Part shown: in pieces, positions 3,597 to 46,801 of the stretch
Layout of the letters: every line of letters starts with the position of its first letter
Numbering within the stretch: position 1 is the first letter of the stretch
Source of the DNA: Candidatus Doudnabacteria bacterium
Lineage (GTDB): Bacteria; Patescibacteriota; Doudnabacteria; UBA920
Assembly (NCBI GenBank): GCA_003151625.1
Contig: PLYC01000032.1
Coordinates: 52,037-100,347, forward strand
DNA: 48,311 nt
Reading direction: 5' to 3'
Program-made: the position numbers and the translations under genes
The notes under the pieces: generated by a model
What the model was told of the DNA's origin: nothing
The model's input: only the letters and a program-made list of their open reading frames with translations
Database searches by the model: none

Positions 3597-4222
3597 TAAA
3601 GCCCTAAATCAATCCTAAATATTCTACTATACAAACCTAGTACCGGCAGTAAAATATTCTCCAGCCAGCCGAGGTATAAAAATATCAAAATTAAAATAAA
3701 TCCCCAGCGCTCAAGGCTTAAAATTTTGTTCATCCATTCGTCGGGAGCCAGAGCCACTATAATTTTACTGCCATCCAGCGGCGGAATGGGAATTAAATTA
3801 AAAGTCCCCAAAAGCAGGTTTACAAAAATCGCGTCCACTAAAATCGGATAAGCAATGGCATTGGCAAGACCAACCTTAATAATTAACCCGCAAATGACAG
3901 CCAGCGCAAAATTAGAAAACGGGCCGGCCAAGCTGACTAAAATCATACCGAGCTTCCGCGGGTGCAACTGGCTAAAATTCACCGGCACCGGCTTAGCCGC
4001 GCCAAAAATTATCGGGTGCGCAGTAAACGGCGCTTGCGCGAAATACATCAACGCAGGCAAAAGAATTGAACCGTAAGGGTCTATATGGGAAATAGGATTT
4101 AAAGTAATCCTCCCGGCTTCCCTGGCCGTATCGTCCCCCAATCTTTCCGCCATAAGCCCATGACAAACCTCGTGCACAATGGCGGAAAAAAGCAGGATTA
4201 TAAGAATTATGATTATGTCCAA
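3596..4222 (-). CDS. Site-2 protease family (M50) membrane metalloprotease
   Basis: 208-residue membrane protein. The first segment carries HEVCHGLMAERLGDDTA (zinc HExxH), followed by RITLNPISHIDPYGS, and a later segment has FNLIPIPPLDGSKI, the NPxPxLDG zinc/active-site motif. This is the standard short M50B/Rv-type layout of 5-6 membrane segments, cleaving substrates within the membrane. The start is TTG (complement 4220-4222) with AAGGA about seven bases upstream; no ATG fits. Likely housekeeping intramembrane proteolysis; substrate unknown. Confidence 0.88.
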   Translation of the reverse strand: MDIIIILIILLFSAIVHEVCHGLMAERLGDDTAREAGRITLNPISHIDPYGSILLPALMYFAQAPFTAHPIIFGAAKPVPVNFSQLHPRKLGMILVSLAGPFSNFALAVICGLIIKVGLANAIAYPILVDAIFVNLLLGTFNLIPIPPLDGSKIIVALAPDEWMNKILSLERWGFILILIFLYLGWLENILLPVLGLYSRIFRIDLGL

Positions 4223-18099: not shown

Positions 18100-18139
18100 A
18101 GACGAAGTCGCCAGCGGTACTGGACTTCGTCTTTTTTTT
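18100..18139 (+). terminator. Intrinsic terminator of mini-gene 17813-18094
   Basis: AGACGAAGTC (18100-18109) pairs perfectly with GACTTCGTCT (18123-18132), followed by a run of T. Confidence 0.92.
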
Positions 18140-21224: not shown

Positions 21225-21266
21225 GCATACTAGTTAAAATCACGGCCGTGATTTTAACTAGTATGC
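21225..21266. repeat. 42-bp perfect palindrome with CGGCCG centre (B)
   Basis: Perfect, loop-free palindrome between the leuS start and the tatD stop. The central AAAATCACGG/CCGTGATTTT half-sites share the AAATCACGGCCGTGATTT core with the palindrome at 45124-45159; the outer arms (GCATACTAGTT) are different. Confidence 0.95.
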
Positions 21267-22321: not shown

Positions 22322-23836
22322 TTATTCTATTCTCGGAAACAACCTCGGAATGTTTTCCAATTTCGGCTCTTTCAAAACCGCTAAAATCTTTTCGCTGGTT
22401 TTTGGTAGGAACGGCTGCAAACTTAGGGCAATTTCGTGCAGTTCCGATAATAAATATTCAATCTCCTTTACCGCTTTTCCCCTGTCAATTTTTATAACTT
22501 TAAACGGTTCATTTTTTTGGATGTATTCGTCGCAACCCTGGATTTTTTTCCAAATTTGGTCGGCGTATTTTTGAAGTTCATAGTTATCAAGCAATACATC
22601 GGACTGATAGGAGGCAATAGGACCGATAGGATTGACGCCGTTACTAATCGCCATCTTCAAAATCCGGCTGGTTAAATTTCCAATGCCGTTGGCTAGTCCC
22701 GCGTTATAGCTTTCCAGAAACTTTCCCCAGGTATAGTCCCCGTCTTCAAAGGTAGAAATTTCTCGCAATAAATAATATCGCAAGGCATCCGTAGCCTGCT
22801 CTTTGGTGAGTCCTTTTGATATCAAGAGATTTATAATCTGATAAGGGTCGGCAACATTACCCAAGCTCTTCGACATTTTTTGTCCGCCGCTGTTTATAAA
22901 ACCGTGGATTATTATTTGTTTTGAGTTAGGCAAACCCGCGCTCATTAGCATTGCCTGCCACATAGCGGATTGTTGGCGGAGGTTATCTTTACCGGCTATT
23001 TGAATGGCGTTGGGGTGTTCTACAGTTCCCCAGAAATCGTAAAACTTAGAACCCTCACCCCAACCCTCTCCCAGAGTGAGAGGGGGGGAAGCAGGGGGCC
23101 ACCCCAATGTCGACACGTAGTTTATTAGCGCGTCAAACCACACGTACATTACATGCGCTTCATCGCCGGGAACCGGCACACCCCAGGACATTTTTTCCTT
23201 TAGCCTGGAAATGGAGAAATCCTGCAGGCCGTTTTTTACAAACTGCTTAATTTCGTTAAAGCGGAAATCAGGCACCACAAATTTGGGATTTTTTTCATAA
23301 AATTCCAAGAGCGGTTTTTCGTACTTGGAAAACCTAAAAAAATAGTTTTCTTCGTCAATGAGCTCAATTTCCAAATGAGGGTGGATTAAGCATCTTCCGT
23401 CCGCATCTAAATCGCTTTCTGTTTTTTCCAACTCACAACCCACGCAGTATTTTATCTTATAAATTTTTTTATATATATCGCCGTTGTCAAAACAGCGCTT
23501 CCAAAATTCCTGCGCCGCGGCAATATGGTGCGCGTCGGTCGTCCGGATAAAATGGATGGCCGGCGATATTCCCAAAGCCGGCATAAGTTGCCTGAATTTG
23601 TCCGCATATTCATCCACGTAATTTTGAATTTCCTTGCCGCGCTCGACGGCCTTGGCAAAAACTTTTTGTCCATGCTCGTCTGTGCCGGTATTAAAAAACA
23701 CATCCTGCTTTAAAACTTCTCCGTGATACCTGGCTATAACATCTGCCTGCACCATTTCCAAAGCAAACCCCAAATGCGGATCGGAGTTAACATATGGCAG
23801 AGTTGTGGTTATGTAAAATTTTTCTTTAGTATCCAT
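22322..23836 (-). CDS. metG: Methionyl-tRNA synthetase
   Basis: 504 aa from ATG complement 23834-23836 (MDTKEKFYITTTLPYVNSDP). The HIGH motif appears as HLGF in PYVNSDPHLGFALEMVQADV. The zinc/connective region KIKYCVGCELEKTESDLD has one CxxC. The KMSKS loop is GGQKMSKSLGN. Anticodon-binding helices follow; no C-terminal EMAP-like tRNA-binding domain. Residues ~247-263 (PPASPPLTLGEGWGEGS) are a translated dispersed repeat. HLGF occurs, to my recollection, in some CPR MetRS, so it is probably lineage-typical. Confidence 0.94.
   Translation of the reverse strand: MDTKEKFYITTTLPYVNSDPHLGFALEMVQADVIARYHGEVLKQDVFFNTGTDEHGQKVFAKAVERGKEIQNYVDEYADKFRQLMPALGISPAIHFIRTTDAHHIAAAQEFWKRCFDNGDIYKKIYKIKYCVGCELEKTESDLDADGRCLIHPHLEIELIDEENYFFRFSKYEKPLLEFYEKNPKFVVPDFRFNEIKQFVKNGLQDFSISRLKEKMSWGVPVPGDEAHVMYVWFDALINYVSTLGWPPASPPLTLGEGWGEGSKFYDFWGTVEHPNAIQIAGKDNLRQQSAMWQAMLMSAGLPNSKQIIIHGFINSGGQKMSKSLGNVADPYQIINLLISKGLTKEQATDALRYYLLREISTFEDGDYTWGKFLESYNAGLANGIGNLTSRILKMAISNGVNPIGPIASYQSDVLLDNYELQKYADQIWKKIQGCDEYIQKNEPFKVIKIDRGKAVKEIEYLLSELHEIALSLQPFLPKTSEKILAVLKEPKLENIPRLFPRIE
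23045..23095. repeat. In-frame repeat inside metG
   Basis: 'ctcaccccaaccctctccc' and 'agagtgagagggggg' halves of the GEGWGEG-type element, translated as PPLTLGEGWGEG. Confidence 0.65.
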
Positions 23837-23897
23837 AAACAAAATAAAAAGGCTATTTAAGCCCTTTTATTATACATTCTATTGCGGTTTTGGACAA

Positions 23898-29161: not shown

Positions 29162-30346
29162 TCAAAAAATACTATTTTCCAGTTTTGTTGGAACATTTAT
29201 AAATTTTTTTACCTTCCCATTTTCCAAATAGACCAAATCCTCTATTCTAATTCCCCCTAACCCTTTAACATAGACTCCCGGTTCAATGCTAAATACCATT
29301 CCGTCCCGCATGACGTCTTTGGAGTTTGGTGAAAGGTTCGGGAGTTCGTGGATTTCCAAGCCCGTGCCGTGGCCGAGGGAGTGGATGAAGTATTTGTCGA
29401 GGTGTTTTTCGGCGAGAATGTCGACGGCTCGCTGATAAACATCATGGGCTAAAACAATCTCTCCCCTGCTCCTCTCCTCAGAAGGAGAGGGGTGCTCCGC
29501 GATTTTGCCGATAACACGCACAACTGCGGAGCTCTCCCCTCTTGAGGGGAGATGTCGCGAATGCATCTGAACGACAGAGAGGTTGCAAAAATTCATAGAT
29601 TCCAAATACGCCTTCTCCACCTGATTATAGGGCATTTCCAAACGTTTGGGAACCGTTTTTAAAAACACTGTCCGGGTAAAATCACTGCAATAATTTTTGT
29701 ATTTGAAGCCAAAATCCAAGATTATACTCTCGCCTGTTTTTAATAGCTTGTTCGATGGAACATGATGCGGCACCGCGGCGTTGCCCCCGCTTGCCACTAT
29801 GGCCGGAAAACTAATATCTTCCGCTCCCATTTTTAACCCGCTATTTTGTATAAATTTCGCCAGACGACTTTCCGTCATCCCCGGTTTTTTTATTTCCCTG
29901 CGGACCAAATGGAAAACCTTTTCCACAATTTGCATGCTCTTTTTTATCAGCGCTATTTCATCGGGCTCTTTAATCATCCGCTGGTAATCCACCGGGTCGT
30001 GCGCGACTGTAATCTTAATTCGTAATTCTTTATTTTTACTTCTTATGTATTTAACTTCCGAATAAGTAAACTCGCCAAAAACTTCCAACGTCTGATTTTT
30101 TGGCACATACATTCCGACATTCTTGAGAAAGTCAGAATGTACTCCCTCAATTTTCTCCAAACCATCGCCCAAAAACACCATATCCGTGTTAATTCGTCTC
30201 TTATTCGTGTTAATTGGTTTAATTAATAAATACCCGTGCATAAAAGAACGACCTGTTAAATACAACAGGTTTTCTTTTTTCTTAATTAAAATAGGGTTAA
30301 TTAGGTTTTTCCGTAGTTCCGCTATCCGGGGTTGGTTTATAGCCAT
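29162..30346 (-). CDS. M24 family aminopeptidase (Xaa-Pro type) with repeat insertion
   Basis: 394 aa from ATG complement 30344-30346 (MAINQPRIAELRKNL). Pita-bread fold: metal ligands in ILDFGFKYKNYCSDFTRTVF (two Asp), FIHSLGHGTGLEIHE (His), FSIEPGVYV (Glu) and RIEDLVY (Glu). The creatinase-type N-domain fits Xaa-Pro dipeptidase/aminopeptidase P. Residues ~255-295 (MHSRHLPSRGESSAV...PSPSEERSRGEIV) are two translated dispersed repeats in a loop between the ligands. Overlaps the upstream small gene by 50 bases. Confidence 0.9.
   Translation of the reverse strand: MAINQPRIAELRKNLINPILIKKKENLLYLTGRSFMHGYLLIKPINTNKRRINTDMVFLGDGLEKIEGVHSDFLKNVGMYVPKNQTLEVFGEFTYSEVKYIRSKNKELRIKITVAHDPVDYQRMIKEPDEIALIKKSMQIVEKVFHLVRREIKKPGMTESRLAKFIQNSGLKMGAEDISFPAIVASGGNAAVPHHVPSNKLLKTGESIILDFGFKYKNYCSDFTRTVFLKTVPKRLEMPYNQVEKAYLESMNFCNLSVVQMHSRHLPSRGESSAVVRVIGKIAEHPSPSEERSRGEIVLAHDVYQRAVDILAEKHLDKYFIHSLGHGTGLEIHELPNLSPNSKDVMRDGMVFSIEPGVYVKGLGGIRIEDLVYLENGKVKKFINVPTKLENSIF
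29461..29585. repeat. Tandem in-frame repeats inside the M24 gene
   Basis: Two palindromic pieces, 'cctctcctcagaaggagagg' and 'gagctctcccctcttgagg', separated by about 40 bases, with 'atgtcgcgaatgcatctg'. Same family as purH, tatD and ATP-grasp insertions. Confidence 0.65.
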
Positions 30347-30638
30347 ATTCAATAGCCTTATTTTTCATTTTTATTAACAGTCGCTCCGCGTCGCTGCCTA
30401 AAGTGTCCAGATCCTTTAAACTTATACCCGATTTTTCCTTCACTTGGGCCGCCCTATATTTTAAATTTTCAAAAGCCACGAGCTCTTCTGCAAACTCATC
30501 ATCAAATTGTTCCTGAGTTTTTCCTCCTAACTCCTTTAGTTCTCCAATTTCTAACCCGATCGTCATTAGTAAATCTACCAATACTTTGTCAACCTCTGAC
30601 CAGCTTAAAAATCTATCCGGATTTCTTTCATCCCTCAT
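30297..30638 (-). CDS. Hypothetical protein, 113 aa
   Basis: ATG overlaps the glyS stop (ATGA), so it is translationally coupled. Mostly helical and acidic (WSEVDKVLVDLLMTIGLEIG, EELVAFENLKYRAAQVKEK, DAERLLIKMKNKAIEYG). No recognised domain. The 3' end overlaps the M24 start by 50 bases in another frame. Confidence 0.6.
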   Translation of the reverse strand: MRDERNPDRFLSWSEVDKVLVDLLMTIGLEIGELKELGGKTQEQFDDEFAEELVAFENLKYRAAQVKEKSGISLKDLDTLGSDAERLLIKMKNKAIEYGYKPTPDSGTTEKPN

Positions 30639-32577: not shown

Positions 32578-33819
32578 TTATTTGCCTTTTGTATAATCGC
32601 GATAATTTTCCTTCATCTCGTTAAAATAATCGTACTGTATAGCCGTGCGAATTTTAACCATTAAATTCAGGTAAAAACGCAGGTTGTGCATTGTGGCCAG
32701 ACGAATGGCCAGGGGTTCCCCGCTGGCAAACAGGTGGCGAAGATACGATTTGGTGTGGTTTAGGCATAAATAGCAGTCGCAAGTGTTGTCTATTGTGGTA
32801 AAGTCTTCTTTATACTTTTCCAGGCGGATGTCGATGGTGCTATAGCCATCAGCCGTTTGATTTTCCGACTTCCGACTTCCGACTTCCGATTTTGCAGAAA
32901 TATACAACCGTCCATGCCTGGCCTCCCTTGTCGGGATTACGCAGTCGAAAGTATCACAACCCCGGCTTACTGCCTGGACAATATCAAAAGGAGTGCCGAC
33001 CCCGAGCAAGTGCTTGGGCGAGGTCTCCGGTAAAAATGGAATAACGGCTTCCACGGCCCTCATCATTTCGCTATGCGGTTCCCCTACCGCCACGCCGCCA
33101 ATAGCAAAAGCCTCAAAGCCTAAAGCCACCATGTCTTTCGCCGACTGCTCACGAAGATCGGGAAAACTTGCGCCCTGAACAATCCCCCATAATTTTTGGC
33201 CGGGGTTTATTGGATCGCCGTCGATAATAATTTTTTGAAATTCTTTAATGGCGCGCTCGGCCCACCGTTTGGTAAGTGCGATGGACTCTTTACTGCGTTC
33301 GTATTCAAACGGATAACCGGGAAAATCGTCCAATATTAAAGATATATCACTGCCTAAGTTGGCCTGAATATCCACGGATTTTTCCGGGCTTAAAATTTCC
33401 TGCCTGCCGTCCAAGTCGAACTGGAACAGTACGCCGGCCTCCATAACTTTGTATACGCCATCCGCCTTCGCTAAAGCTTCGGCGGATGACCCTCTATTTT
33501 TATCACGGCGGTGGGTCAAACTAAAAACCTGGAAGCCGCCGCTGTCGGTAAATATCGGCCCTTTCCAGTTCATAAATTTGTGCAGGCCGCCGGCTTTGTA
33601 AATAAGCCCGTCCCCCGGCCGTTGCCACAAGTGGTACGTGTTGGCCAAAATAATTTCCGCGCCCCAAAATTTTAGCTCCTCGCTCGTAACCGCCTTTACC
33701 GTTCCCTTTGTCCCAATAGGCAAAAACGCCGGGGTCTGTACATCCCCATGCGCGGTATGTATCATCCCCGTCCGCGCGACGGATGATGGGTCTTTTTTTA
33801 GAATATCGAAGTAAGGCAT
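32578..33819 (-). CDS. tgt: tRNA-guanine transglycosylase with two translated repeat insertions
   Basis: 413 aa from ATG complement 33817-33819 (MPYFDILKKDPSSVARTG). Exchanges G34 for preQ1 in GUN-anticodon tRNAs. Seen: FTDSGGFQVFSL (catalytic base D92), LDDFPGYPFEYERSKES, FDCVIPTREARHG (nucleophile D292) and the zinc site TCDCYLCLNH with MHNLRF. Residues 103-121 (HRRDKNRGSSAEALAKADG) and 310-326 (KSEVGSRKSENQ, a GAAGTCG tandem repeat) are insertions. The ATG is six bases after a TATACT box, so the mRNA may be leaderless. Whether queuosine precursors are made or salvaged is not shown here. Confidence 0.93.
   Translation of the reverse strand: MPYFDILKKDPSSVARTGMIHTAHGDVQTPAFLPIGTKGTVKAVTSEELKFWGAEIILANTYHLWQRPGDGLIYKAGGLHKFMNWKGPIFTDSGGFQVFSLTHRRDKNRGSSAEALAKADGVYKVMEAGVLFQFDLDGRQEILSPEKSVDIQANLGSDISLILDDFPGYPFEYERSKESIALTKRWAERAIKEFQKIIIDGDPINPGQKLWGIVQGASFPDLREQSAKDMVALGFEAFAIGGVAVGEPHSEMMRAVEAVIPFLPETSPKHLLGVGTPFDIVQAVSRGCDTFDCVIPTREARHGRLYISAKSEVGSRKSENQTADGYSTIDIRLEKYKEDFTTIDNTCDCYLCLNHTKSYLRHLFASGEPLAIRLATMHNLRFYLNLMVKIRTAIQYDYFNEMKENYRDYTKGK
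32866..32892. repeat. In-frame GAAGTCG tandem repeat in tgt
   Basis: Seven-base unit (ccgactt on the plus strand) three times plus a partial copy, translated as SEVGSRKSE. Confidence 0.8.
33463..33492. repeat. In-frame dispersed repeat in tgt
   Basis: 'ccgccttcgctaaagcttcgg' family element, translated SSAEALAKADG; the same family, and the same peptide AEALAK, occurs in the ATP-grasp gene. Confidence 0.75.
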
Positions 33820-33841
33820 GAATATAGTATAACGTATTATC

Positions 33842-33860
33842 AAAAGAGGGGCACTCCCCT
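33842..33860 (-). terminator. Hairpin terminator between 33919-34263 and tgt
   Basis: AGGGG/CCCCT stem with CTTTT on the minus strand. It separates the pnp-33919 transcript from tgt. Confidence 0.6.
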
Positions 33861-36530: not shown

Positions 36531-36620
36531 TGTACTAATCCCTTTTCTTTCAAGATGACGTATGTGTTGACGACGACTTTTTCAAAAAGTCTTCGCTGTA
36601 CCCACACACCATCTGGAAAG

Positions 36621-37019
36621 TTAATTGTTATATTTTGCCAATACTGCGAGTATTTTACCTAAAATTTCGTCCGGTGTAAAGTAGGCTTTTACTAAATAAT
36701 CGTCGGCTCGTAAATTTTTGACCCTTAAAATATCGCTGTTGCTCCAAAGGTTGCTTAAGACTATTACCGGCAAGTCGGCAATTTTTTTGTCGGTACTTCC
36801 GCGGATGCTTTCCAAAACCTGAAAGCCATCCATTTCGGGCATCATTAAGTCCAGCAAAATTAAATCCGGGAGCTTTTCACCTACCATTCTTACCCCCTCT
36901 TTGCCGTCCTGGGCGTGACGAACATCAAAGCCGCTTGCCCCCAGCTTATGAGAAACAATCTCCGCCATAGCGACATCGTCTTCCATTACAATAACATTTT
37001 TTTGTGTTGATTTTGCCAT
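36621..37019 (-). CDS. Receiver-only response regulator
   Basis: 132 aa CheY-like receiver: acidic pocket VMEDDVA (residues 12-15), phospho-acceptor LILLDLMMPEMDG (D57), SNLW (Ser) and YLVKAYFTP (Lys) switch residues. There is no output domain. It is divergent from the plus-strand operon that ends in a histidine kinase, and the 110-bp gap between them carries two opposing extended -10 promoters. A functional pair with that kinase is inference. Upstream of pnp by about 90 bp. Confidence 0.9.
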   Translation of the reverse strand: MAKSTQKNVIVMEDDVAMAEIVSHKLGASGFDVRHAQDGKEGVRMVGEKLPDLILLDLMMPEMDGFQVLESIRGSTDKKIADLPVIVLSNLWSNSDILRVKNLRADDYLVKAYFTPDEILGKILAVLAKYNN

Positions 37020-37043
37020 TTCTTTTTTAAAAATCCCTTATAA

Positions 37044-37084
37044 ATTATAGCATAATGGTAAAAATAAGGGAAATGTGATATAAT
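37044..37084. promoter_or_regulatory. Divergent extended -10 promoters between regulator and operon
   Basis: Minus: TGCTATAAT (TATAAT at complement 37044-37049), toward the response regulator. Plus: TGTGATATAAT (TATAAT at 37079-37084), toward the five-gene operon. Neither has a good -35. Confidence 0.6.
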
Positions 37085-37130
37085 TTAACCAATCTTGCTC
37101 TCATAAACTTACAATTTAAACAAAAAAACC

Positions 37131-38216
37131 TTGGCCGTGACACAAAAATACAAAACCTTACCTGAATTCAAAAATCATGAACAAATTATTGAATTAAACG
37201 ACCCAGATTCAGGTTTGGCGGGCTTTATTTCTATCCATAAATGTTTTCCTCCCTATCCTTCTTTTGGGGCAACAAGGATGGCTTTTTATAAACACAAAAC
37301 AGACGCTTTGAGGGACGCGTTAAGGTTGTCCGCTTTAATGTCTTTTAAAAGCATCATGGCCCAATTACCATACGGGGGTGCCAAAGCTGCAATAATCCAT
37401 CCCTATTTGAAAATGAACCGGCTACAAAAACAAAAACTTTTGACAGCTTACGCAAAAAAAGTAGACGAGCTAAAAGGCCAGTTTATCACCGGAGCCGATC
37501 TTGGTATAAACGAGAAGGACTTAACAATAATAAAAAAAGTCTCCCCTTATATTGTCGGATTAAAAAGCGAGCCGGTTCCCTATACCGCGCTGGGATTATT
37601 TTATGGGTTGGAAGTGGTATTGGAAGAGGTATTTGGAAAAAAAAGTTTGAGCGGCAAATCGTTTGCGATCCAGGGCGTTGGGAAAATTGGCGGAAGCTTT
37701 TTAAAACTTATATACCGGCAAGCGACTAAAATATTTGTTGCTGATACCGACAAGGTTACCTTAATGGAAATAAAAAAACAGTACCCAAAAGTTACGATTG
37801 TCAGTCCCCAAGATATATTTGTACAAAATGCGGATATATTTTCTCCCTGCGCCTTAGGAGGAGCATTAAACAGCGAAACGATAAAAAAAATTAAAAGCAA
37901 AATAATTTTGGGCGGAGCCAACAATCAGTTGGCAGCAGAAAAAATAGGCGTCGAGCTATACAGCAAGGGCATTCTTTATGCGCCGGATTATGTTATTAAC
38001 GCGGGAGGACTAATTAGCGTTACTGACGAGTACGAAAACCCCGTTTTTAATAAACAACGGCTCGAGAAAAAAGTAAAAAAAATTGCCGAAACTTTAAAAG
38101 AAATAATTACTGTCAGCAAAAAACAGCACAAAGCAACTAACCTGATTGCCGATGAAATGGCCGAAGCCAAACTAAAAAAAACATATGAACAACAAACCGC
38201 TATTGCCAGGGTATAA
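37131..38216 (+). CDS. Leu/Val/Phe-type amino-acid dehydrogenase (ELFV family)
   Basis: 361 aa; start TTG 37131 or GTG 37137, no SD. NAD(P)-dependent oxidative deamination of branched or aromatic amino acids, or the reverse amination. Seen: FGATRMAFYKHKTDALRDALRLS, LPYGGAKAAI (catalytic Lys), FITGADLGI, the Rossmann AIQGVGKIGGSFLK, FSPCALGGALN, ILGGANNQLA and YAPDYVINAGGLI. These match leucine/valine dehydrogenases better than glutamate dehydrogenase. First gene of the island operon; it overlaps the next by 32 bases. Confidence 0.88.
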   Translation: MAVTQKYKTLPEFKNHEQIIELNDPDSGLAGFISIHKCFPPYPSFGATRMAFYKHKTDALRDALRLSALMSFKSIMAQLPYGGAKAAIIHPYLKMNRLQKQKLLTAYAKKVDELKGQFITGADLGINEKDLTIIKKVSPYIVGLKSEPVPYTALGLFYGLEVVLEEVFGKKSLSGKSFAIQGVGKIGGSFLKLIYRQATKIFVADTDKVTLMEIKKQYPKVTIVSPQDIFVQNADIFSPCALGGALNSETIKKIKSKIILGGANNQLAAEKIGVELYSKGILYAPDYVINAGGLISVTDEYENPVFNKQRLEKKVKKIAETLKEIITVSKKQHKATNLIADEMAEAKLKKTYEQQTAIARV

Positions 38217-39705
38217 TAGCGTAAAATCTTTATTAAGAGACTTAACAGTAAAGCCTGAAAAATTTTGGCTTAAAAGAGGCGAATCAAAATTACTCAGGCT
38301 TTTTAAGCAATCGTCCCGGCATATTGCCGCCTACAAAAAATTCCTTAAGGCAAATGGTTTTGATCCAAAAAAAATAACCAAGCTTAGGGATATAAGTTCC
38401 GTCCCGCCTGTGGACAAAAATAATTATTTAAGAAAGTACCCTTTGGATTCTTTATGCTGGAACGGCAATTTTAAACACAGTCATTGGATTTTTGCCGCCA
38501 CTTCCGGCAGTACCGGACAACCGTTTTATTTTCCGCGGACAGCCGAACAGGATTTACAATACGCCGCCCTGGCTGAACTTTATTTAGTACATAATTTCCA
38601 AATTGACAAAAAATCCACCCTCTACATAAATGGCTTTGCTATGGGGGTTTGGATTGGAGGCGTGTTTACCTATCAGGCAATCCACGATGTAGCCCAGCGC
38701 GGTAATTATTCTTTAAGCATAATTAACCCCGGCCTCAATAAACAGGAAATAATTAAGGCAGTCACTAATTTAGGCCCTAAATTTGAGCAGATAATTATAG
38801 GCGGCTATCCTCCTTTTGTTAAAGAAACGATTGATGAAGGCCTGGCACAGGGACTTAACTGGAAAAAGTATAAATTGGGATTTGTGTTTTCGGCCGAACC
38901 CTTTAGCGAAAAATTCCGCGACTATATAATTAATACCACCGGTTTAAAAAACCCTTATACCGGGACCCTAAACCATTATGGAACTGCCGACCAAGGGACT
39001 TTGGCCTACGGCACACCGCTATGCATCTTAATTAAAAGACTGGCTTTAAAAAATCCAAAATTGTTTGCCGCCATTTTTCCCGAGGTCCAGCGGCTCCCGA
39101 CCCTAGCCCAATACTTTCCCGAAATGTTCTATTTTGAAGAGCAAAAAGGCCAGTTACTTTGTTCGGCCTACAGCGGCCTGCCATTGTTCCGTTATGACTT
39201 AAAAGACCGTGGTGGGGTAATAACTTTCGGGCAGATGAGTGAAATCTTTGGCTCCGCAGGGATGAACCTGGAACAGGAAGTCCGAAAAGCCAATTTGCTG
39301 GACAGTCTTTGGCACCTACCCTTTGTCTATGTTTACGAGCGCAGTGATATGGCGGTAACCTTATTTGGGGCAAACATATATCCCGAGCATATAAAAGAAG
39401 CCCATTTGCAGTCAAATACTGTTAAACACTTTACCGGCAAGTTCACCTTGGAAGTAAAATACAACAAACACCACTCTCCAGTTTTACACGTCCACACGGA
39501 ACTTAAAAAAAATATCCTCCCGAGTACCCGGCTAAACCGTATTATTAAAGAAGAAATAATTAAAAAACTGTTGGAAAAAAACTCCGAGTATAAGAATAAT
39601 TACGCTATGATGCCTAAAAAAAACAGCCCAAAAATTAAACTTTGGACAAACCAAAGCCCACCGTTCTTTAAGGACGGCGGGAAACAAAAATGGGCGATGA
39701 AATAA
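38185..39705 (+). CDS. ANL-superfamily ligase, PaaK/LuxE-like
   Basis: 506 aa. Adenylate-forming enzyme: ATP loop AATSGSTGQPFYFPR (~108), NHYGTADQGTLAYG (A5 region, ~263) and FRYDLKDRGGVITFG (A8, ~335), with a C-terminal swinging subdomain. It resembles phenylacetate-CoA ligase-like and acyl-protein-synthetase proteins rather than NRPS domains; the acid substrate is unknown. It overlaps both neighbours in the operon (32 bases upstream, 16 downstream), so it is tightly coupled to the dehydrogenase and ThiF genes. Confidence 0.85.
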   Translation: MNNKPLLPGYNSVKSLLRDLTVKPEKFWLKRGESKLLRLFKQSSRHIAAYKKFLKANGFDPKKITKLRDISSVPPVDKNNYLRKYPLDSLCWNGNFKHSHWIFAATSGSTGQPFYFPRTAEQDLQYAALAELYLVHNFQIDKKSTLYINGFAMGVWIGGVFTYQAIHDVAQRGNYSLSIINPGLNKQEIIKAVTNLGPKFEQIIIGGYPPFVKETIDEGLAQGLNWKKYKLGFVFSAEPFSEKFRDYIINTTGLKNPYTGTLNHYGTADQGTLAYGTPLCILIKRLALKNPKLFAAIFPEVQRLPTLAQYFPEMFYFEEQKGQLLCSAYSGLPLFRYDLKDRGGVITFGQMSEIFGSAGMNLEQEVRKANLLDSLWHLPFVYVYERSDMAVTLFGANIYPEHIKEAHLQSNTVKHFTGKFTLEVKYNKHHSPVLHVHTELKKNILPSTRLNRIIKEEIIKKLLEKNSEYKNNYAMMPKKNSPKIKLWTNQSPPFFKDGGKQKWAMK

Positions 39706-40847
39706 CCGTTATGGAATCCAATCCAAAAACAAATCAGGATGTTGCTACGTGGCAGCCTATATATATTAAAACCATCGGTAGTTATAGGCGGGTATTAAAA
39801 AAGCACGGGTTTTTTAATACCCAAATAAAAATAGTTAACGAAACGGCCGGCCAATTGGAAGAATTGTTTTGCTTGCGCAATCCGCAAACCCGATTTTTAG
39901 GCGGCTTTGAAAAAGCACAGTCAACTTTTGCAAAACAGCATTTAAAGACTACCCGATGGTTTTATTTTCCCTGGCTAAATAAACTTGTAGCTTTTTTGCC
40001 GGAAGCTTTACATACTGAACTTCGCACCGGACGAAACCGGAACCTCATTACCAATGAAGAACAAAAACAATTCTATAACAGCCACATAGCGATACTGGGG
40101 ATGAGCGTGGGTAGCCATGTGGCGCTAACAATTGTTCTGACCGGAGGAGGAAAATATTTAACGTTAGCGGATCCGGATACTATTTCCGGTTCCAATATTA
40201 ACCGCATCAGAACCGGATTTCATAACGTCGGCCTTAACAAAACAAAAGCCGTGGCAAGGCAAGTTTACGAAATAAACCCCTACGCCAAAATAAACATTTT
40301 TCCTGAAGGGTTAAATGACTCTAATTTAAAGGCATTTTTTAAACTAAAGTGTGATTTGGTAATTGAAGAAACCGATTTGCCGTATTTGAAAATAAAAGTT
40401 AGGGAATTGGCAAGGCCTTTGGGGATCCCCGTAATTATGGCCGCGGATAATGCGGATGGCGTAATTGCCGATGTTGAGCGCTTTGACCAAAATAAAAAAC
40501 TTCCTATATTGCATGGCTTAATAGGAAATATGTCGGCCGCAGAATATAAAAATATATCGCCGCAGCAATTACCAAAAACAATGGCAAAAATTGCCGGCGC
40601 CAATCTGTCTACAGTAAGGATGCTCGAATCCGTCATGCAAGTCGGCAAAAGTATCTATTCTTGGCCGCAATTAGGAAATGCGGCAACTCTCTGTGGCTCT
40701 ATTCTCGCTTTTATCGCACGCTCTGTTATTTTGGGAAAATCTATTAAATCCGGCAGAACCAATTTTAGCCCACAAGATGTTTTCCTGCCGGCAACCGTTA
40801 CGGAGATAAAAAACCGTAATAAATTTTTAAAAATGTTGGGGCTTTAA
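39690..40847 (+). CDS. ThiF/E1-like adenylyltransferase (MoeY N-domain-like)
   Basis: 385 aa; start ATG 39690 (ATG 39711 is possible). An N-terminal region of ~130 residues is followed by a Rossmann E1 core: IAILGMSVGSHVALTIVLTGGG, LTLADPDTISGSNINRIRTG (Asp for ATP/Mg, Asn-Arg), KTKAVARQVYEINPYAKINIFPEG and DLVIEETD. No CxxC zinc pairs and no clear catalytic Cys, so adenylation without thioester transfer is likely. With the adjacent nitroreductase it matches the two halves of mycobacterial Rv1355c (MoeY), known to me as a ThiF-nitroreductase fusion. Confidence 0.83.
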   Translation: MGDEITVMESNPKTNQDVATWQPIYIKTIGSYRRVLKKHGFFNTQIKIVNETAGQLEELFCLRNPQTRFLGGFEKAQSTFAKQHLKTTRWFYFPWLNKLVAFLPEALHTELRTGRNRNLITNEEQKQFYNSHIAILGMSVGSHVALTIVLTGGGKYLTLADPDTISGSNINRIRTGFHNVGLNKTKAVARQVYEINPYAKINIFPEGLNDSNLKAFFKLKCDLVIEETDLPYLKIKVRELARPLGIPVIMAADNADGVIADVERFDQNKKLPILHGLIGNMSAAEYKNISPQQLPKTMAKIAGANLSTVRMLESVMQVGKSIYSWPQLGNAATLCGSILAFIARSVILGKSIKSGRTNFSPQDVFLPATVTEIKNRNKFLKMLGL

Positions 40848-40854
40848 AAATCAA

Positions 40855-41877
40855 ATGAAAAACCTACGAAAAATCAATACCAATAAACAAGCTTTCAACA
40901 CATTGCCAGATAAAGAAAAAATTCGTATTTTAGCAACTGTTACAAGTTGGGCGCCTTCCAGTCATAACACACAACCGTGGCATTTTTATGTTGGCAACAA
41001 TAAAATACGCATCTCGCCGGACTTCACCAAAAGTCTTCCGATTGGTGATAAAAACCACCGCCAACTCTACATTAGTCTTGGAGCTGCTGTCGCCAATACC
41101 TGCATGGCAGCCGATTGTTTAGGCCTAAGTTACAAAAAAAAATATCTGGAGAAAAATAGTATTTTTTCCATTGAAATATTTTTTGAAAACCTCCAAGCTA
41201 ATAGCTTCAACAACCAACTTTGGCAGGCACTATCAACCAGACACAGTAACCGACTTAAGCTGCTAAAACAAAATTTTAATCAGGAATATTCGAAAAAAAT
41301 TTTAGGACTCGTAAATTCTGAAGTAAATATCCATTTTGTCCAGGAAGAAATACAAAAAAAACAGTTAAAAAATATTGTGGAGGAGGCTCTGGAATCATCA
41401 TTTAACAACAAAAAATTTAGATACGAGCTTTCACACTGGATAAAGCCTAGCCTATCAAAATACTCTGAAGGTATGACTGGATACTACTTAGGTGTCCCTT
41501 GGATAATTTCTTTTGTCATGCCTTGGGTAATCAAAAAATTTAACATTTCAAAAATGCAAAAAAAGATGCATTTAAAATGGATTGACTCGGCTCCGGTTAT
41601 AGGAATAATAACCGGGAAAAATGACGATATTAAAAGCTGGATTCAAGCGGGAGAATTTTTTGGACTTATAGCAACTTTGGCCGAAGAGTTGAAAATTAGG
41701 ACTGGAGTGATGGCCGCCCCAATAGAATCGGCCTATGGGAGAAAACAACTACAAGCATTACTTAATACTCGGGAACATCCCTTAATATTTTTTCGTCAAG
41801 GTTTTGGACCGGCCGAAAAGCATTTCAGCCCGAGGAGACCCCTTGATAAACTTATAACATATGAACTTTGCACTTAA
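40855..41877 (+). CDS. Nitroreductase-family protein (Acg/MoeY C-domain-like)
   Basis: 340 aa. FMN-binding nitroreductase fold: VTSWAPSSHNTQPWHFYV (~29), LYISLGAAVANTCMAAD, WQALSTRHSNRL and the C-terminal GVMAAPIESAYGRKQL with HPLIFFRQGFGP. The APSSHNTQPW signature is that of the Acg-like (Rv2032) and MoeY-type group rather than classical NfsB. Extremely AT-rich compared with the window average. Starts seven bases after the ThiF gene and overlaps the kinase gene by 17 bases. Flavin reduction or oxidation of an adenylated product is inference. Confidence 0.8.
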   Translation: MKNLRKINTNKQAFNTLPDKEKIRILATVTSWAPSSHNTQPWHFYVGNNKIRISPDFTKSLPIGDKNHRQLYISLGAAVANTCMAADCLGLSYKKKYLEKNSIFSIEIFFENLQANSFNNQLWQALSTRHSNRLKLLKQNFNQEYSKKILGLVNSEVNIHFVQEEIQKKQLKNIVEEALESSFNNKKFRYELSHWIKPSLSKYSEGMTGYYLGVPWIISFVMPWVIKKFNISKMQKKMHLKWIDSAPVIGIITGKNDDIKSWIQAGEFFGLIATLAEELKIRTGVMAAPIESAYGRKQLQALLNTREHPLIFFRQGFGPAEKHFSPRRPLDKLITYELCT

Positions 41878-43516
41878 CATAGATATAGTGTCAGTGGGCT
41901 TTGCGGTAGCAACTTCCACTATTTTAGGATTTGCCATATTTTTTTCAAATCCTAAAAGTAAAACAAATCAATACTTCCTCTTTTTTGTTATTACAAACGT
42001 TGGGTGGAGTATTTTCAACTACTTAACCTATCGGGTAACAAATATGGCGGTGCGGCTAACTTTTATTAGATTTGTTCTTTACTTCGCAATCTTCCAAACC
42101 TTTAGCTATTTACTTTTAATGGATACCTTTCCCGATGAGCAAAAAAAAATATCAAAAATTACCAAATATGTTTTAATCCCCTGGACAACATTTGTAGCTT
42201 ATCTTACATTAACACCTTGGGTTTTTTCCGGCATTATCACTAACCCAGACAGTTTAGTTTCCCAACCAATAGTCGCTAAAGGGGTTGTATTTTTTGGTTT
42301 AACGGCAATTTCTTATGTAGTCTGGGGCTGTTTTAAACTGGCAATAAAATTAAAAAATGCTGTTCCTGAAGAAAAAAGACCATACCGCCTCCTTTTGATT
42401 GGAGCCGTAATAATGTTTAGTTTGATAATATTTTTTAATTTTATTGGGTCTTCTTTATTAAAGAACAGTAGTTTTATTCCATTTAGCGCCTTCTTTACAT
42501 TACCTTTTATTATATTTACTTCTTATGCCATCATTAAGCACCACCTGATGAATATCAAAGTTTTCTCTACCGAAATTTTGACTTTACTTTTAGCTCTAGC
42601 AATTTTACTAGAAACAGTTACGGCTAAAAATATTACAGAATTGCTATTTGGTTTTGGCATTTTTATTTTGGTTTTAAGCATTGGTGTATTACTAATTAAA
42701 AGTGTAAAAAAGGAAATTGAGCAGCGTGAGCAGTTGGAAACTTTGAGCAGGGAGTTGGGTGGGGCGAATGAAAAGTTAAAGGCGCTGGATCAGGCCAGAG
42801 CGGAATTTATTACAATAGCTTCGCATCAATTACGCACGCCGCCGGCCACAATAAAATGGTATTTGTCCGCGGCCATGGCCGGAGATTACGGCAAACTCCC
42901 TCCGGAAGTCGCGTCGGTTATAGAAAAAGCCGCCATTACTAATAACCATCTTATTTCCCTTATTGAAGACATGCTGAACGTCTCCAGAATTGAACGCGGG
43001 AAAATGGAATTTCTATTTGAGCCCTCCCAAGTGGAAGAACTGGCCAGCTTTGCCTTTGAACAGCTTATTCCCATGGCCAAAATAAAAAAACTGGATTATA
43101 CTTATACACCTCCAAAAAAACCGTTGCCGGAAATTTTAGCCGACAAAGAAAAATTGCGCCAGGTTATGAATAATTTAATAGACAATGCCTTAAAATACAC
43201 CAAGCTGGGCACCGTGGCAGTGAGTCTGTTTTTAAAAGACAATGAAATCGTGTTCCAGGTTAAAGACAGCGGCAAGGGCATAAGTCCGGACGAGCAAAAC
43301 TCCATTTTCCAAAAATACAGCCGCGGCAAGGAATCCATAAAGCAGAGCGCGGGCTTGGGTCTTGGCCTGTATGTGGCAAAAATTATTGTGGATGAGCACA
43401 AAGGGAAAGTTTGGGCCGAGAGCAAAGGCGAAGGCCAGGGTTCGGTGTTCAGTTTTAGCCTGCCGGTTAACAGCGGCCTTAAACAGACCACTATGGTAGA
43501 TCTTGGCGCGAAATGA
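41861..43516 (+). CDS. Hybrid-composition sensor histidine kinase with 7TM N-domain
   Basis: 551 aa. Residues 1-~285 hold about eight hydrophobic segments in the pattern of the histidine-kinase N-terminal 7TM domain. Then HisKA with FITIASHQLRTPP (phospho-His, ~322), HATPase_c with NNLIDNALKYT (N box), VKDSGKGIS and GLGLGLYVAKIIV (G boxes). No PAS domain, no receiver. From about 42,715 (the coiled coil before HisKA) base composition changes from very AT-rich to GC-richer, host-like use, so the protein may be a fusion of an island-type sensor and a local kinase core. The likely partner is the receiver at 36621. Confidence 0.9.
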   Translation: MNFALNIDIVSVGFAVATSTILGFAIFFSNPKSKTNQYFLFFVITNVGWSIFNYLTYRVTNMAVRLTFIRFVLYFAIFQTFSYLLLMDTFPDEQKKISKITKYVLIPWTTFVAYLTLTPWVFSGIITNPDSLVSQPIVAKGVVFFGLTAISYVVWGCFKLAIKLKNAVPEEKRPYRLLLIGAVIMFSLIIFFNFIGSSLLKNSSFIPFSAFFTLPFIIFTSYAIIKHHLMNIKVFSTEILTLLLALAILLETVTAKNITELLFGFGIFILVLSIGVLLIKSVKKEIEQREQLETLSRELGGANEKLKALDQARAEFITIASHQLRTPPATIKWYLSAAMAGDYGKLPPEVASVIEKAAITNNHLISLIEDMLNVSRIERGKMEFLFEPSQVEELASFAFEQLIPMAKIKKLDYTYTPPKKPLPEILADKEKLRQVMNNLIDNALKYTKLGTVAVSLFLKDNEIVFQVKDSGKGISPDEQNSIFQKYSRGKESIKQSAGLGLGLYVAKIIVDEHKGKVWAESKGEGQGSVFSFSLPVNSGLKQTTMVDLGAK

Positions 43517-43530
43517 TTCCTACTGTCAAA

Positions 43531-43564
43531 AAAACCTTTCCGCGGTTCGCGGAAAGGTTTTTTA
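43531..43564 (+). terminator. Intrinsic terminator of the island operon
   Basis: AAAACCTTTCCGCG/CGCGGAAAGGTTTT stem with GTT loop and T-tract; closes the plus-strand operon. Confidence 0.92.
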
Positions 43565-43582
43565 GTTTAACAAAAACAAAAT

Positions 43583-43990
43583 TTAATTTTCTGGCTTTAG
43601 ACTGCCCAACATTTCGTGCTCAAAGTGAAGCAAAAACTGCACCGGGTCGGGAGTACTGCCAAATAAAATATGCTCCACGCTGTTGCGCTGGCCTCGGTTT
43701 TGCGAGCTTCCCACACCTTTTTGCTGAAACCACTCTTTCCAATTTTCGCTGAATTTTTTGTAACCTTCGGAATTTTCATCCCCGTATTTAGCGTATATGA
43801 TTTCGTATTTGGTTTTGTCGGAAATATTAATGAATTCACTTTTTTCTTCCAAGGTCAAAAATCCGTTTTTCTGCAAAGACTGCTTAATTTTTTGAACAGA
43901 GGGATTGGTATAAACCGCCTGGCAAACTTGCTTGCCCAACTCCAGCCATTCTTTATCAAACTCGTCAAAATTTAAACTTTTAAACCCCAT
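43583..43990 (-). CDS. Hypothetical protein, 135 aa
   Basis: Soluble, charged, helical: FDEFDKEWLELGKQVCQAVY, KIKQSLQKNGFLTLEEKSEF, KFSENWKEWFQQKG. One Cys. No membrane segment or known domain. Lies between rpsO and the island, minus strand, convergent with the kinase gene, and may be part of the inserted block or of the original rpsO transcript. Confidence 0.5.
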   Translation of the reverse strand: MGFKSLNFDEFDKEWLELGKQVCQAVYTNPSVQKIKQSLQKNGFLTLEEKSEFINISDKTKYEIIYAKYGDENSEGYKKFSENWKEWFQQKGVGSSQNRGQRNSVEHILFGSTPDPVQFLLHFEHEMLGSLKPEN

Positions 43991-44486: not shown

Positions 44487-45545
44487 TTATACCCAAACTG
44501 CCGGGTTTTGTAAATAGCTAATAAATTCGGCTGTTACATTGAATAGTGTAAGTTCCTCGAATGATCGGAGCCCCGGGAAGCGGTTGACTTCGAGGATGTA
44601 AAATTTTCCTTTGGATTCGAGGATGTCGACTTTGGCGAGTTCGCGGCTAAGGAGGAGGGATGATTGTTCTGCAAGTTGGACTATCTTTTTTATTTTATCT
44701 ACTCCAACTACCTTCCCGCCTTCCACCTTCGCTAAAGCTTCGGCGGACAAGTCGGCGGGACTCCTCCTTGAAAAGGAGGAGAGGCTCCGCGGGATGTCCG
44801 AAGATAACCGCGGAGCTTCCCCTCCTCTTTTGAGGAGGGGTGGACGCGAAGCGGACGGGGTGGTTGGAGTTTGAATTACATTATATTTATCAAAATCCGT
44901 CCTAAAACCGGAATCCAAAATTTTAAATCTTAGCACTACAGGTAAAGCCTTATAGCCTACGGTTATAACTTTATACTCATATTCCGCTTTTATAAATTCC
45001 TGAACCAGCCATTCCTCTTTGGGGTGGAGGGACAGGATAGCTTTTAGATCAGCTTGATTGTTAATTAAAAAGACGTTTTTTGCTTTAAACCCATATACCC
45101 ATTTTAAAATAAACGGATACCCATACTTGTTTAAATCACGGCCGTGATTTAAACAAGTAGTTTTCGGAATGGGTAAACCGGCTTCTCGGAGTTTATAATA
45201 GTCCACCAATTTCCCCTGGCCAAGTTCGCCGTCGACGATAACCGAGTCGACAACTCTTTTGCCGGCTCGTTTAAATTTTTTTGCCAGCTTTATAATTTGC
45301 AGAATGTACTTCGGGCTGCCGTTTAAATAAGGGTCGCGGATATATAAAACATCAAATAATGTTAAATCCACCTTAAACCCGCATGCCAGCAAATCGGCAA
45401 CGTCCATAATCTTGCAGCCCACATTTCCGCCGGAGGCGGATCCGCCTACGGCGGACATAATTCTTAATTCCACATTCTTAATTCCTGCCTCTTCCCTCAG
45501 CCTTTTTGCCGCGTAAACTTTTTTTGATGATATAACTAAAATCAT
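44487..45545 (-). CDS. ATP-grasp (RimK-like) ligase carrying several repeat insertions
   Basis: 352 aa. ATP-grasp core: YKLREAGLPIPKT, YGYPFILKWVYGFKAKNVFLI (ATP-binding Lys), EEWLVQEFIKAEYEYKVITVG and the metal-binding ILEVNRFPGLRSFE near the C-terminus, as in RimK/glutathione-synthetase-like carboxylate-amine ligases. At least four translated repeats: SAVGGSASGG (~31-40), CLNHGRDLN (a CGGCCG palindrome, ~131-139), and a ~50-residue segment with PPLLKRGGEAP...SAEALAKVEGG (~226-277). Frame kept throughout, so probably functional. Substrate unknown. Confidence 0.8.
   Translation of the reverse strand: MILVISSKKVYAAKRLREEAGIKNVELRIMSAVGGSASGGNVGCKIMDVADLLACGFKVDLTLFDVLYIRDPYLNGSPKYILQIIKLAKKFKRAGKRVVDSVIVDGELGQGKLVDYYKLREAGLPIPKTTCLNHGRDLNKYGYPFILKWVYGFKAKNVFLINNQADLKAILSLHPKEEWLVQEFIKAEYEYKVITVGYKALPVVLRFKILDSGFRTDFDKYNVIQTPTTPSASRPPLLKRGGEAPRLSSDIPRSLSSFSRRSPADLSAEALAKVEGGKVVGVDKIKKIVQLAEQSSLLLSRELAKVDILESKGKFYILEVNRFPGLRSFEELTLFNVTAEFISYLQNPAVWV
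44700..44880. repeat. Compound in-frame repeat block in ATP-grasp gene
   Basis: At least three repeat pieces in series: 'ccttcgctaaagcttcggcgg', 'actcctccttgaaaaggagg' and 'cttcccctcctcttttgagg', with 'gctccgcgggatgtccgaag' between. About 150 bases, in frame. Confidence 0.7.
45124..45159. repeat. 36-bp perfect palindrome with CGGCCG centre inside ATP-grasp gene (C)
   Basis: Loop-free palindrome, translated as part of CLNHGRDLN. It shares AAATCACGGCCGTGATTT with palindrome B; the arms (TACTTGTTT) are different. Confidence 0.95.
45428..45485. repeat. In-frame repeats near the ATP-grasp N-terminus
   Basis: 'tccgcctacggcgga' and 'ccgccggaggcggatccgcc' palindromes (SAVGGSASGG) followed by repeated AATTC words (attcttaattccacattc). 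Confidence 0.6.
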
Positions 45546-45682: not shown

Positions 45683-46801
45683 ATGGAGACCCTAAATCAA
45701 CCTAAAAAATCCCCTACTCCGCTTACTCCCCTGCAAGTCCACATTAACGAATTTTTGGAGTACTGCGAGATTGCCAAAAATCAAAGCTTAAATACCATCA
45801 AAGCTTATGACAGGTATTTAAGAAAGTTTTCCAGATTCGCGGCTACCCTGGGAGTTACGGAATCAAAAAATATTACCCTTGTGCTGGTAAATAAATACCG
45901 GCTCTATTTAAATCGCTTGAGCGACGACAAAGGCAACAGCCTAAAACTAATTACCCAAAATTATCATCTTATTGCTCTTCGGGCGTTCTTGAAATATTTA
46001 GGAAAAAATGACATTGAAACTTTAAATCCGGAAAAAATTGAACTGCCAAAGAACCCCCAGAGGCAGGTGGAATTTTTGGAAAGTGACGAGTTAAAAAGAT
46101 TATTCTCAGCCACAGCCCATGAAAAAGAGGAACTCCCCCGCCTAAGGGATACCGCCATACTGCAAACGCTTTTTTCCACCGGCCTGCGTGTTTCCGAAGC
46201 CGCCGGACTTAGGCGCGATTCCATAAATTTGGAGCGCCGGGAGTTTACCGTACGCGGTAAAGGCAGTAAACTACGCTTGGTTTTTTTAAGCAACGAGGCC
46301 GCGGAGGATATTAAAAAATACCTGGCCAAACGCAAAGACAACAGCAAGGCATTGTTTATTGGGCATTCGATTATAGGAAAGACATCGGATAAACCGGAGA
46401 AAAAAAATGATGAAAAAACTGTAGCCGCCAGACAAAAACTAATGGAAAAAGAAATTCAAAGCCAGTCCGCAGTTTCCCTCCCCCTTCTTGTCAGCCGAAG
46501 CCTTGGCGAAGGAGGGGGCGGGAGGGTTAGGGAGGGGGTAAAAATCATTCCCGGATTAACACCCAGGCAAATTCAAAGAATAATAAAAAAATACGTAAAA
46601 ATCGCGGGCATAGTAAAAAAAGTCACGCCTCACACCCTGCGCCACTCCTTTGCCACCGATCTTTTACAAAACGGGGCGGACATCCGCAGTGTCCAAACCC
46701 TGCTTGGACATTCCAGTATAACCACTACGCAAATTTACACTCACGTTACTAACGAAGGCTTAAGGGACATCCATAGAAAATTCCATGGGAAGAGCAAGTA
46801 G
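45683..46801 (+). CDS. xerC: XerC/XerD-type tyrosine recombinase with repeat insertion
   Basis: 372 aa (family ~300). SAM-like N-domain (HINEFLEYCEIAKNQSLNTI). Catalytic set: STGLRVSEAAGL (R169), RGKGSKLR (Lys), PHTLRHSFATDLL (H317, R320), LLGHSSITTTQIYTH (H343, Y352). It resolves chromosome dimers at dif. The excess is a loop (residues ~230-290) that includes a translated dispersed repeat, LPLLVSRSLGEGGGGRVREG, between the beta-sheet and the HxxR helix. Plus strand, probably leaderless mRNA. A partner Xer is not in the window. Confidence 0.92.
   Translation: METLNQPKKSPTPLTPLQVHINEFLEYCEIAKNQSLNTIKAYDRYLRKFSRFAATLGVTESKNITLVLVNKYRLYLNRLSDDKGNSLKLITQNYHLIALRAFLKYLGKNDIETLNPEKIELPKNPQRQVEFLESDELKRLFSATAHEKEELPRLRDTAILQTLFSTGLRVSEAAGLRRDSINLERREFTVRGKGSKLRLVFLSNEAAEDIKKYLAKRKDNSKALFIGHSIIGKTSDKPEKKNDEKTVAARQKLMEKEIQSQSAVSLPLLVSRSLGEGGGGRVREGVKIIPGLTPRQIQRIIKKYVKIAGIVKKVTPHTLRHSFATDLLQNGADIRSVQTLLGHSSITTTQIYTHVTNEGLRDIHRKFHGKSK
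46475..46540. repeat. In-frame repeat inside xerC
   Basis: 'ccctcccccttcttg', 'agccgaagccttggcg' and 'gggcgggagggttaggg' pieces; same families as elsewhere in the window. Confidence 0.65.

Follow-up and report, generated by a model that had tools for sequence, protein, structure and literature searches.

A putative synthase-receptor cassette of Patescibacteria that joins predicted oxazolone-type enzymes to a seven-transmembrane histidine kinase

Mycobacterial Rv1355c is TrzS, and purified TrzS from Mycobacterium smegmatis, together with TrzA from M. tuberculosis, cyclises N-acyl-tryptophan and then desaturates the product; the adenylation aspartate is required (PMC12856293). TyzB and TyzC carry out the equivalent cyclisation and desaturation for tyrosine (PMC10404671). 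What the resulting bacterial oxazolones, which are acid-labile, do for the cell has been described as unresolved, and a resemblance to signalling molecules has only been pointed out (PMC12856293). Here we analyse a window of 48,311 nucleotides from an uncultured Candidatus Doudnabacteria bacterium, tiny and of groundwater type (assembly GCA_003151625.1, contig PLYC01000032.1, positions 52,037 to 100,347; host genome of 1.5 Mb), in which pnp is separated from a small open reading frame (ORF) adjoining rpsO by a block of ~7.0 kb (about 36605-43578). The reading that we favour, with modest confidence and from sequence comparison, is that the block represents a synthase-receptor cassette, in which an aryl-acyl amino-acid (oxazolone-like) signal would be built and then sensed by a histidine kinase.

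The block includes a gene for a receiver-only response regulator of 132 aa (36621-37019, minus strand; PF00072, 79 bits). Divergent from it, across a 111-bp intergenic region (37020-37130) in which promoters are presumed, are five plus-strand genes. They encode an ELFV amino-acid dehydrogenase (37131-38216, 361 aa, TTG start; PF00208/PF02812), a PaaK-like adenylate-forming ligase (38185-39705, 506 aa), a ThiF/E1-type adenylating cyclase of the Rv1355c (TrzS) type (39690-40847; PF00899), an Acg/Rv3131-type FMN oxidoreductase of the nitroreductase superfamily that is probably a desaturase (40855-41877), and a sensor histidine kinase with an N-terminal seven-transmembrane (7TM) domain (41861-43516; PF16927/PF00512/PF02518). 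With successive overlaps or gaps of -32, -16, +7 and -17 nt, the genes form one operon-like run, closed by a perfect 16-bp hairpin with A/T flanks (43529-43563) that is probably a bidirectional terminator. A first-pass annotation of this DNA had described the regulator and the divergent five-gene run, and Pfam and NCBIfam searches bore out both coordinates and families. Catalytic motifs look intact in the dehydrogenase (PYGGAK, GADLG), the ligase (SGSTGQP loop, YGTAD), the ThiF protein (Asp229), the kinase (phosphoacceptor SHQLRTP) and the receiver (LDLMMP). A promoter scan of the intergenic region gave scores no better than shuffled sequence, and an Rfam scan found tRNAs only.

In the pathway that we propose, the dehydrogenase (elsewhere an aromatic lyase or an aminotransferase) would convert an amino acid, probably aromatic, to a 2-oxo or cinnamic-type acid, which the PaaK-like ligase would adenylate and, without coenzyme A (CoA), attach to an amino acid at its amino group. 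The ThiF protein would adenylate the free carboxylate and close an oxazolone-like ring, and the flavoenzyme would desaturate the ring product. The kinase could then perceive the lipophilic product through its 7TM domain and would signal via receiver proteins in an autoinducer-like or self-sensing manner. The signal might serve the cell in sensing itself or a host, or in regulating a protective compound.

The ligase is the central conserved enzyme of the cassette. A profile search of genome contigs with a ligase alignment recovered 557 relatives. The best 80 of these, nearly all from Patescibacteria of many candidate phyla with a few from cyanobacteria and others, were examined for neighbours, which were called by custom profiles run on simple ORF calls in genomes that are mostly metagenome-assembled. 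Among the 49 well-flanked loci in this set of 80, a ThiF gene is nearby in 46, a flavoenzyme in 44 and a kinase in 42. Within the order, ThiF and ligase occur in an identical set of 20 of 49 genomes. Outside the order, a kinase is near 21/21 well-flanked ligase loci (counted with a full-length kinase profile, by which a non-7TM kinase would count too), ahead of ThiF (17), the flavoenzyme (12) and the deaminase (9), which makes the kinase the ligase's most constant partner. Of 380 genomes sampled evenly across the phylum, 54 have the ligase and 47 of these 54 have a 7TM sensor kinase within 10 kb, and every one of the top 30 sensor-domain matches is ligase-linked; both counts are biased toward linked matches, since the sensor profile was built from linked kinases. 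Some loci are reduced to ThiF-ligase-kinase or to ligase-kinase. As judged from sequence, the cluster sits in varied housekeeping contexts, for example near dnaK-dnaJ or aminoacyl-tRNA synthetase genes. By gene neighbourhood, the ligase, ThiF and 7TM kinase genes travel as a group across Patescibacteria.

Other ligase homologues (L134, L139, L133) occur in Planktothricoides and Nostoc, with no ThiF or kinase nearby, and in a Pseudomonadota-labelled metagenome-assembled genome, where ThiF and a flavoenzyme accompany the homologue. Separately, some ligase clusters carry an alpha/beta hydrolase gene (PF00561) between ThiF and kinase (L192, 6350-7234; L201, 10160-11032), the product of which is conceivably a signal-degrading enzyme.

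The first gene of the operon is interchangeable. The best NCBIfam match of the window dehydrogenase is the tryptophan dehydrogenase ScyB (NF035922), at 284.7 bits against a cut-off of 600, and the nearest solved structures are a tryptophan dehydrogenase (5b37) and then leucine dehydrogenase. The enzyme is thus nearest to Trp/Leu dehydrogenases by profile and structure matches, and its substrate is probably aromatic. A scytonemin-like pathway was rejected, given the ScyB score below the cut-off and no recognised ScyA or ScyC. In relatives, the same slot holds an aromatic amino-acid lyase (PF00221, 497-530 bits) or a HisC-like aminotransferase. The nearest curated model of the lyase variant is the tyrosine ammonia-lyase FlxA (NF053541), at 599 bits and below its cut-off of 700, with HutH at 455. 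All three types remove an amino group. On the ligase tree, the deaminase type changes once, as low as in none of 500 shuffles, whereas on the pnp tree of the same genomes it changes five times, no better than chance; a larger ligase tree of 119 rows gives 7 changes against 19.2 when shuffled. Because the deaminase type follows the ligase tree and not the organism tree, there is strong indirect evidence that the deaminase product is the substrate of the ligase. The closest relative of the window by pnp (G002, 90% identical) has a cassette of the lyase type at this junction too, and its ligase and ThiF protein are only 36% and 38% identical to those of the window.

The ligase has no Pfam match, and its assignment comes from NCBIfam PaaK (2.8e-10), PDB profile matches and an AlphaFold model (pLDDT 88.8) for which PaaK is the best Foldseek match (2.3e-23). 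The CoA synthesis gene coaE was not found in five of five genomes checked (the organism and four relatives), and the same five have no clear acyl carrier protein, with a marginal match in the window genome only; thus, a CoA-free ligase fits. We infer that the N-acyl amino acid is made directly by the ligase from aryl acid, ATP and amino acid. The ThiF protein matches PRK07877 (the Rv1355c family) with 281 bits over residues 42-359, where the cut-off of 476 applies to the full fusion. Its adenylation residue, Asp229, is invariant in 15 aligned relatives and lines up with the EECD motif of a Rhodococcus protein of the Rv1355c family (TrzS type), which places it with the TrzS/TyzB group of oxazolone cyclases. 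Its best solved profile match is TcdA. Molybdopterin or thiamine synthesis, which the ThiF/MoeY resemblance might bring to mind, was rejected, as Rv1355c/TrzS is the best family and no cofactor genes accompany the cluster.

The adjacent flavoenzyme, a member of the superfamily to which the remaining half of Rv1355c belongs, gives 190 bits to NF047509 (cut-off 199) and 60 bits to the TrzS model, and a solved-structure search with it as a single sequence returned no match. Most relatives have a TrzS-type domain in this position, and in the cluster of one relative (L025/L167) ThiF and oxidase are fused into one protein, which scores 453 bits to the fusion model (L167). The FMN-dependent oxidase of oxazolone pathways thus has a counterpart here, adjacent to ThiF in the window and fused to it in that relative.

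The 7TM sensor domain PF16927 was found in 16/16 kinases tested, and the window sensor is modelled as helical by AlphaFold (pLDDT 85.8). The kinase is the only one of its sensor type found in the window genome, where two others match in the kinase domain only. A receiver homologue lies divergent upstream of the operon in many relatives (for example L021, L022, L028, L030, L031 and L035), and the receiver is a probable phosphorylation partner of the kinase, judging from this placement.

Kinase homologues that have no ligase also point to small-molecule synthesis. Within four genes of 45 such loci, ThiF and/or a FeeM/LuxI-type N-acyltransferase (PF21926 up to 63 bits, PF00765 43 bits) was present in 15, compared with 0/22 control kinases with ThiF, FeeM, ligase or KAS nearby (Fisher p = 0.0013). 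FeeM/LuxI-type N-acyltransferases, mostly with ThiF, adjoin 7TM kinases at L222, L224, L235, L242, L259, L260 and L262 (also L223 and L255), and these loci of other Patescibacteria are candidate N-acyl amino-acid signalling systems. Other 7TM kinases lie directly downstream of KAS III (one case), UbiA-type prenyltransferase or alpha-oxoamine-synthase genes (L225, 8010-9143; L230, 5937-6794; L232, 4126-4986; L234, 3730-5013; L265, 3839-5086). The alpha-oxoamine synthases were rejected as CqsA, since they score higher to KBL/SPT or 5-aminolevulinate (ALA) synthase. None of the window enzymes belongs to a known autoinducer synthase family (LuxI, CqsA and others), and FeeM/Autoind_synth proteins occur at the sister kinase loci. 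Sensor domains cluster by partner synthase (22 changes against 37.8 shuffled, in a fast tree with long branches that is indicative only). In G002, identity to the window is 77% for the kinase domain and 40% for the sensor, which is reminiscent of the dialect divergence of known synthase-receptor pairs. That the deaminase type tracks the sensor domain within the order is partial only (2 changes) and is not claimed.

The first-pass annotation had proposed that the adenylating enzymes, the flavoenzyme and the dehydrogenase together make a small amino- or keto-acid-derived molecule. Synthesis of a small molecule gains support from the Rv1355c/TrzS-like ThiF and flavoenzyme, from their fusion and from the deaminase swapping in step with the ligase. 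The product class stands and can be narrowed to an N-acyl amino-acid or oxazolone-like compound; the dehydrogenase is indeed present, as one of three interchangeable first enzymes. The further suggestion that the product is sensed is strengthened, at the level of gene neighbourhoods, by the constancy of the kinase and by its ligase-free homologues beside acyl-signal-type synthases. The annotation had also allowed that the five genes might be unlinked in close relatives; instead they are linked across families and phylum-level groups.

Several observations, besides the profile bias given above, weigh against an oxazolone-like signal that the kinase perceives. The flavoenzyme is missing from distant loci, which frequently have no ThiF or no deaminase either; therefore, the product is not always an unsaturated oxazolone. 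The window flavoenzyme belongs to the Acg/Rv3131 branch and not, as in most relatives, to the TrzS branch, and its exact reaction is therefore the least certain step. The N-acyltransferase usual in oxazolone clusters is not among the window genes, and none recurs near the best 80 ligase loci, so that amide formation by the ligase is a guess. A fold search with the 7TM domain returned weak GPCR-like matches only, none at E<=0.001. The receiver lacks an output domain, a receiver gene does not accompany every such operon, and the operon encodes no exporter. Sensors in general evolve faster, and inside the order the sensor does not strictly track the deaminase type (2 changes; ~40% identity whatever the type).

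These points have to be set beside other explanations of the same genes. The operon might make a protective or antimicrobial oxazolone or N-acyl dehydro-amino acid (a pigment, antioxidant or toxin), with the kinase as a switch for stress or membrane state and not a receptor. A tentative link with stress has been drawn for known oxazolones, and one with antimicrobial activity for N-acyl tyrosines (PMC12856293), and an operon-encoded kinase may merely regulate its operon. However, no single tailoring enzyme is as constant as the kinase, which is tied to very different synthases with sensors that cluster by synthase type, as a generic stress sensor need not; the receiver also lacks a DNA-binding domain. 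We regard this explanation as unlikely. We give very little credence to a nutrient-sensing role of the kinase in nitrogen scavenging or in the catabolism of aromatic amino acids: a deaminating first enzyme with a PaaK-like ligase does resemble arylacetate catabolism, but downstream degradation genes are absent, the deaminase is optional (9/21 loci), CoA synthesis seems incomplete, and ThiF and the flavoenzyme would have no place in such a pathway.

The product could instead be a chromophore of the 7TM kinase, bound covalently or non-covalently, in a light or redox sensor, on the model of photoactive yellow protein, which has coumarate as its chromophore. The ability of azlactones to acylate amines and the proximity of the lyase variant to the tyrosine ammonia-lyase FlxA both count for this. 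Cinnamic-type acids and arylidene oxazolones absorb light, with 360 nm reported for tyrazolones and 400 nm for the tryptazolone reaction (PMC12856293). Yet acyltransferase- or UbiA-partnered variants would yield non-aromatic ligands, many of the genomes are of groundwater and sediment origin, and an alignment of 52 kinases shows no lysine or cysteine that stands out as strongly conserved in the membrane helices, on which ground a light-sensing chromophore on a conserved transmembrane lysine was rejected; a chromophore thus seems quite improbable. Least credible to us is that the ThiF protein is the E1 of a protein-conjugation or anti-phage system. There are weak PADLOC E1-E2 matches (46 bits), but no E2, ubiquitin-like or JAB protein was seen nearby or recognised in the neighbourhoods of relatives, Rv1355c is the best family and TcdA the best solved match, and the linked genes encode metabolic enzymes and a kinase. 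E1-E2 defence was accordingly rejected, with a partial, weak E1 match as the only one among 7 genes and no partner genes. We retain the synthase-receptor cassette as the preferred reading.

The first-pass annotation had also held that an island splits the rpsO-pnp pair, and a pnp search in 30 relatives agrees. In the family, rpsO and pnp usually have a single ORF of ~130 aa between them, homologous to the 135-aa ORF at 43583-43990 (minus strand; no Pfam or NCBIfam match). Genomes without the block keep rpsO beside pnp (G005, of the same genus, and G008, G010, G012, G013, G014, G017, G022, G030 and G034), as do those with the cluster elsewhere (G015, G016, G020, G023-G026, G029 and G032), and the two genes are thus normally together in this lineage and not, as the annotation had allowed, normally apart. 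The receiver gene adjoins pnp instead of rpsO in G002, G003, G004, G006, G011, G007 and G018. The block lies between the ~130-aa ORF and pnp in the window, G007 and G018, within a longer insert in G002, and at the same position in G009, where another gene replaces the receiver. Similarity to empty sites is lost at about 36604-36631 and returns at about 43578. The ORF at 43583-43990, which the annotation had counted with the island, belongs to the ancestral arrangement, because it is conserved between rpsO and pnp with or without the block. No integrase, tRNA or flanking repeat was found at the block edges, and a mobile-element origin was rejected on these grounds.

A literature search, which covered few subscription papers or preprints and in which absence is no proof, found no such system described in Patescibacteria. 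The block is a putative autoinducer-type synthase-receptor cassette of a new biosynthetic line that is widespread in these bacteria. Hundreds of related bacteria have the same synthase-kinase pairing, in which the enzymes are interchangeable, and which looks like an undescribed chemical signalling system. More tentatively, and with rather less than even confidence, we suggest that Patescibacteria carry phylum-wide signalling cassettes with one type of 7TM kinase and interchangeable synthases, of which the window version would make a CoA-independent aryl-acyl oxazolone. Since dozens of genomes link ThiF/oxidase genes to a membrane receptor kinase, the idea of oxazolone signalling becomes directly testable; if true, this would be the first receptor for oxazolone-type molecules. 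Patescibacteria (candidate phyla radiation, CPR) are thought to be metabolically minimal; they are known to have lost biosynthetic capacity and to depend closely on other cells. In such organisms, a molecule for communication or for sensing a host would be unexpected, and the cassette points to a large set of further unexplored synthase-kinase pairs in the same phylum.

Elsewhere in the window, the leucyl-tRNA synthetase (18138-21215, minus strand, 1025 aa) has an inserted alpha/beta serine-hydrolase-like domain at residues about 259-416, directly preceding the editing domain (PF06821, 33 bits; PF00561, 28 bits). In-frame repeat-like peptides (for example LTPALSQREREEG, SSAEALAKADG and SRSLGEGGGGRVREG) occur within PurH-, MetG-, aminopeptidase P-, Tgt-, ATP-grasp- and XerC-like proteins (6289-7983, 22322-23842, 29162-30352, 32578-33843, 44487-45545 and 45683-46801), with one DNA-level repeat too (D6), which suggests tolerated insertions of repeat elements in housekeeping-type proteins. 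There are also two copies of a 38-nt palindromic element (21226-21263 and 45122-45159) and a TGTCAAAG-type repeat pair (2903-2964 and 3539-3600).

Of the described systems, TcdA, the tRNA ct6A synthase, is the nearest solved relative of the window ThiF protein and shares its fold. Its tRNA-bound substrate is an N-acylated amino acid, of which it adenylates and cyclises the carboxylate; the window protein differs in an extra N-terminal region common to Rv1355c. Flexirubin synthesis (FlxA/FlxY and the p-coumarate ligase step) resembles relatives of the window in placing a tyrosine-ammonia-lyase-like enzyme beside a PaaK-like aryl-acid ligase, but no polyketide genes were seen here and the scores are below the curated cut-offs (599 vs 700; 33 vs 520). 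The oxazolone pathways, namely TyzACB and TrzAS of Mycobacterium, OxzAB of Pseudoalteromonas rubra and the NasY/ThiF/nitroreductase clusters (PMC10404671, PMC12856293, PMC12479983), have in common with the cassette a ThiF cyclase adjacent or fused to a nitroreductase-superfamily oxidase and the conserved catalytic aspartate, with a methyltransferase sometimes added. The predicted chemistry of the cassette comes closest to theirs. Unlike them, the cassette has a PaaK-like ligase and a swappable deaminase in place of an N-acyltransferase, one of their defining features, includes the 7TM kinase and receiver, and in the window has an oxidase of the Acg/Rv3131 branch.

In its logic the cassette comes closest to the synthase-kinase quorum-sensing systems CqsA-CqsS, LqsA-LqsS and ComQXP, but it has other synthase chemistry and a receiver-only regulator. 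Like them, it has synthase genes adjoining a multi-transmembrane receptor kinase (47/54 genomes and 21/21 loci in the counts above), and in both, sensor and synthase have diverged beside a conserved kinase domain and conserved flanks. Among the related 7TM kinase loci, the synthase partners are of FeeM/LuxI, KAS III, UbiA and alpha-oxoamine-synthase type, and those of the last type resemble KBL/SPT or ALA synthase more than CqsA.

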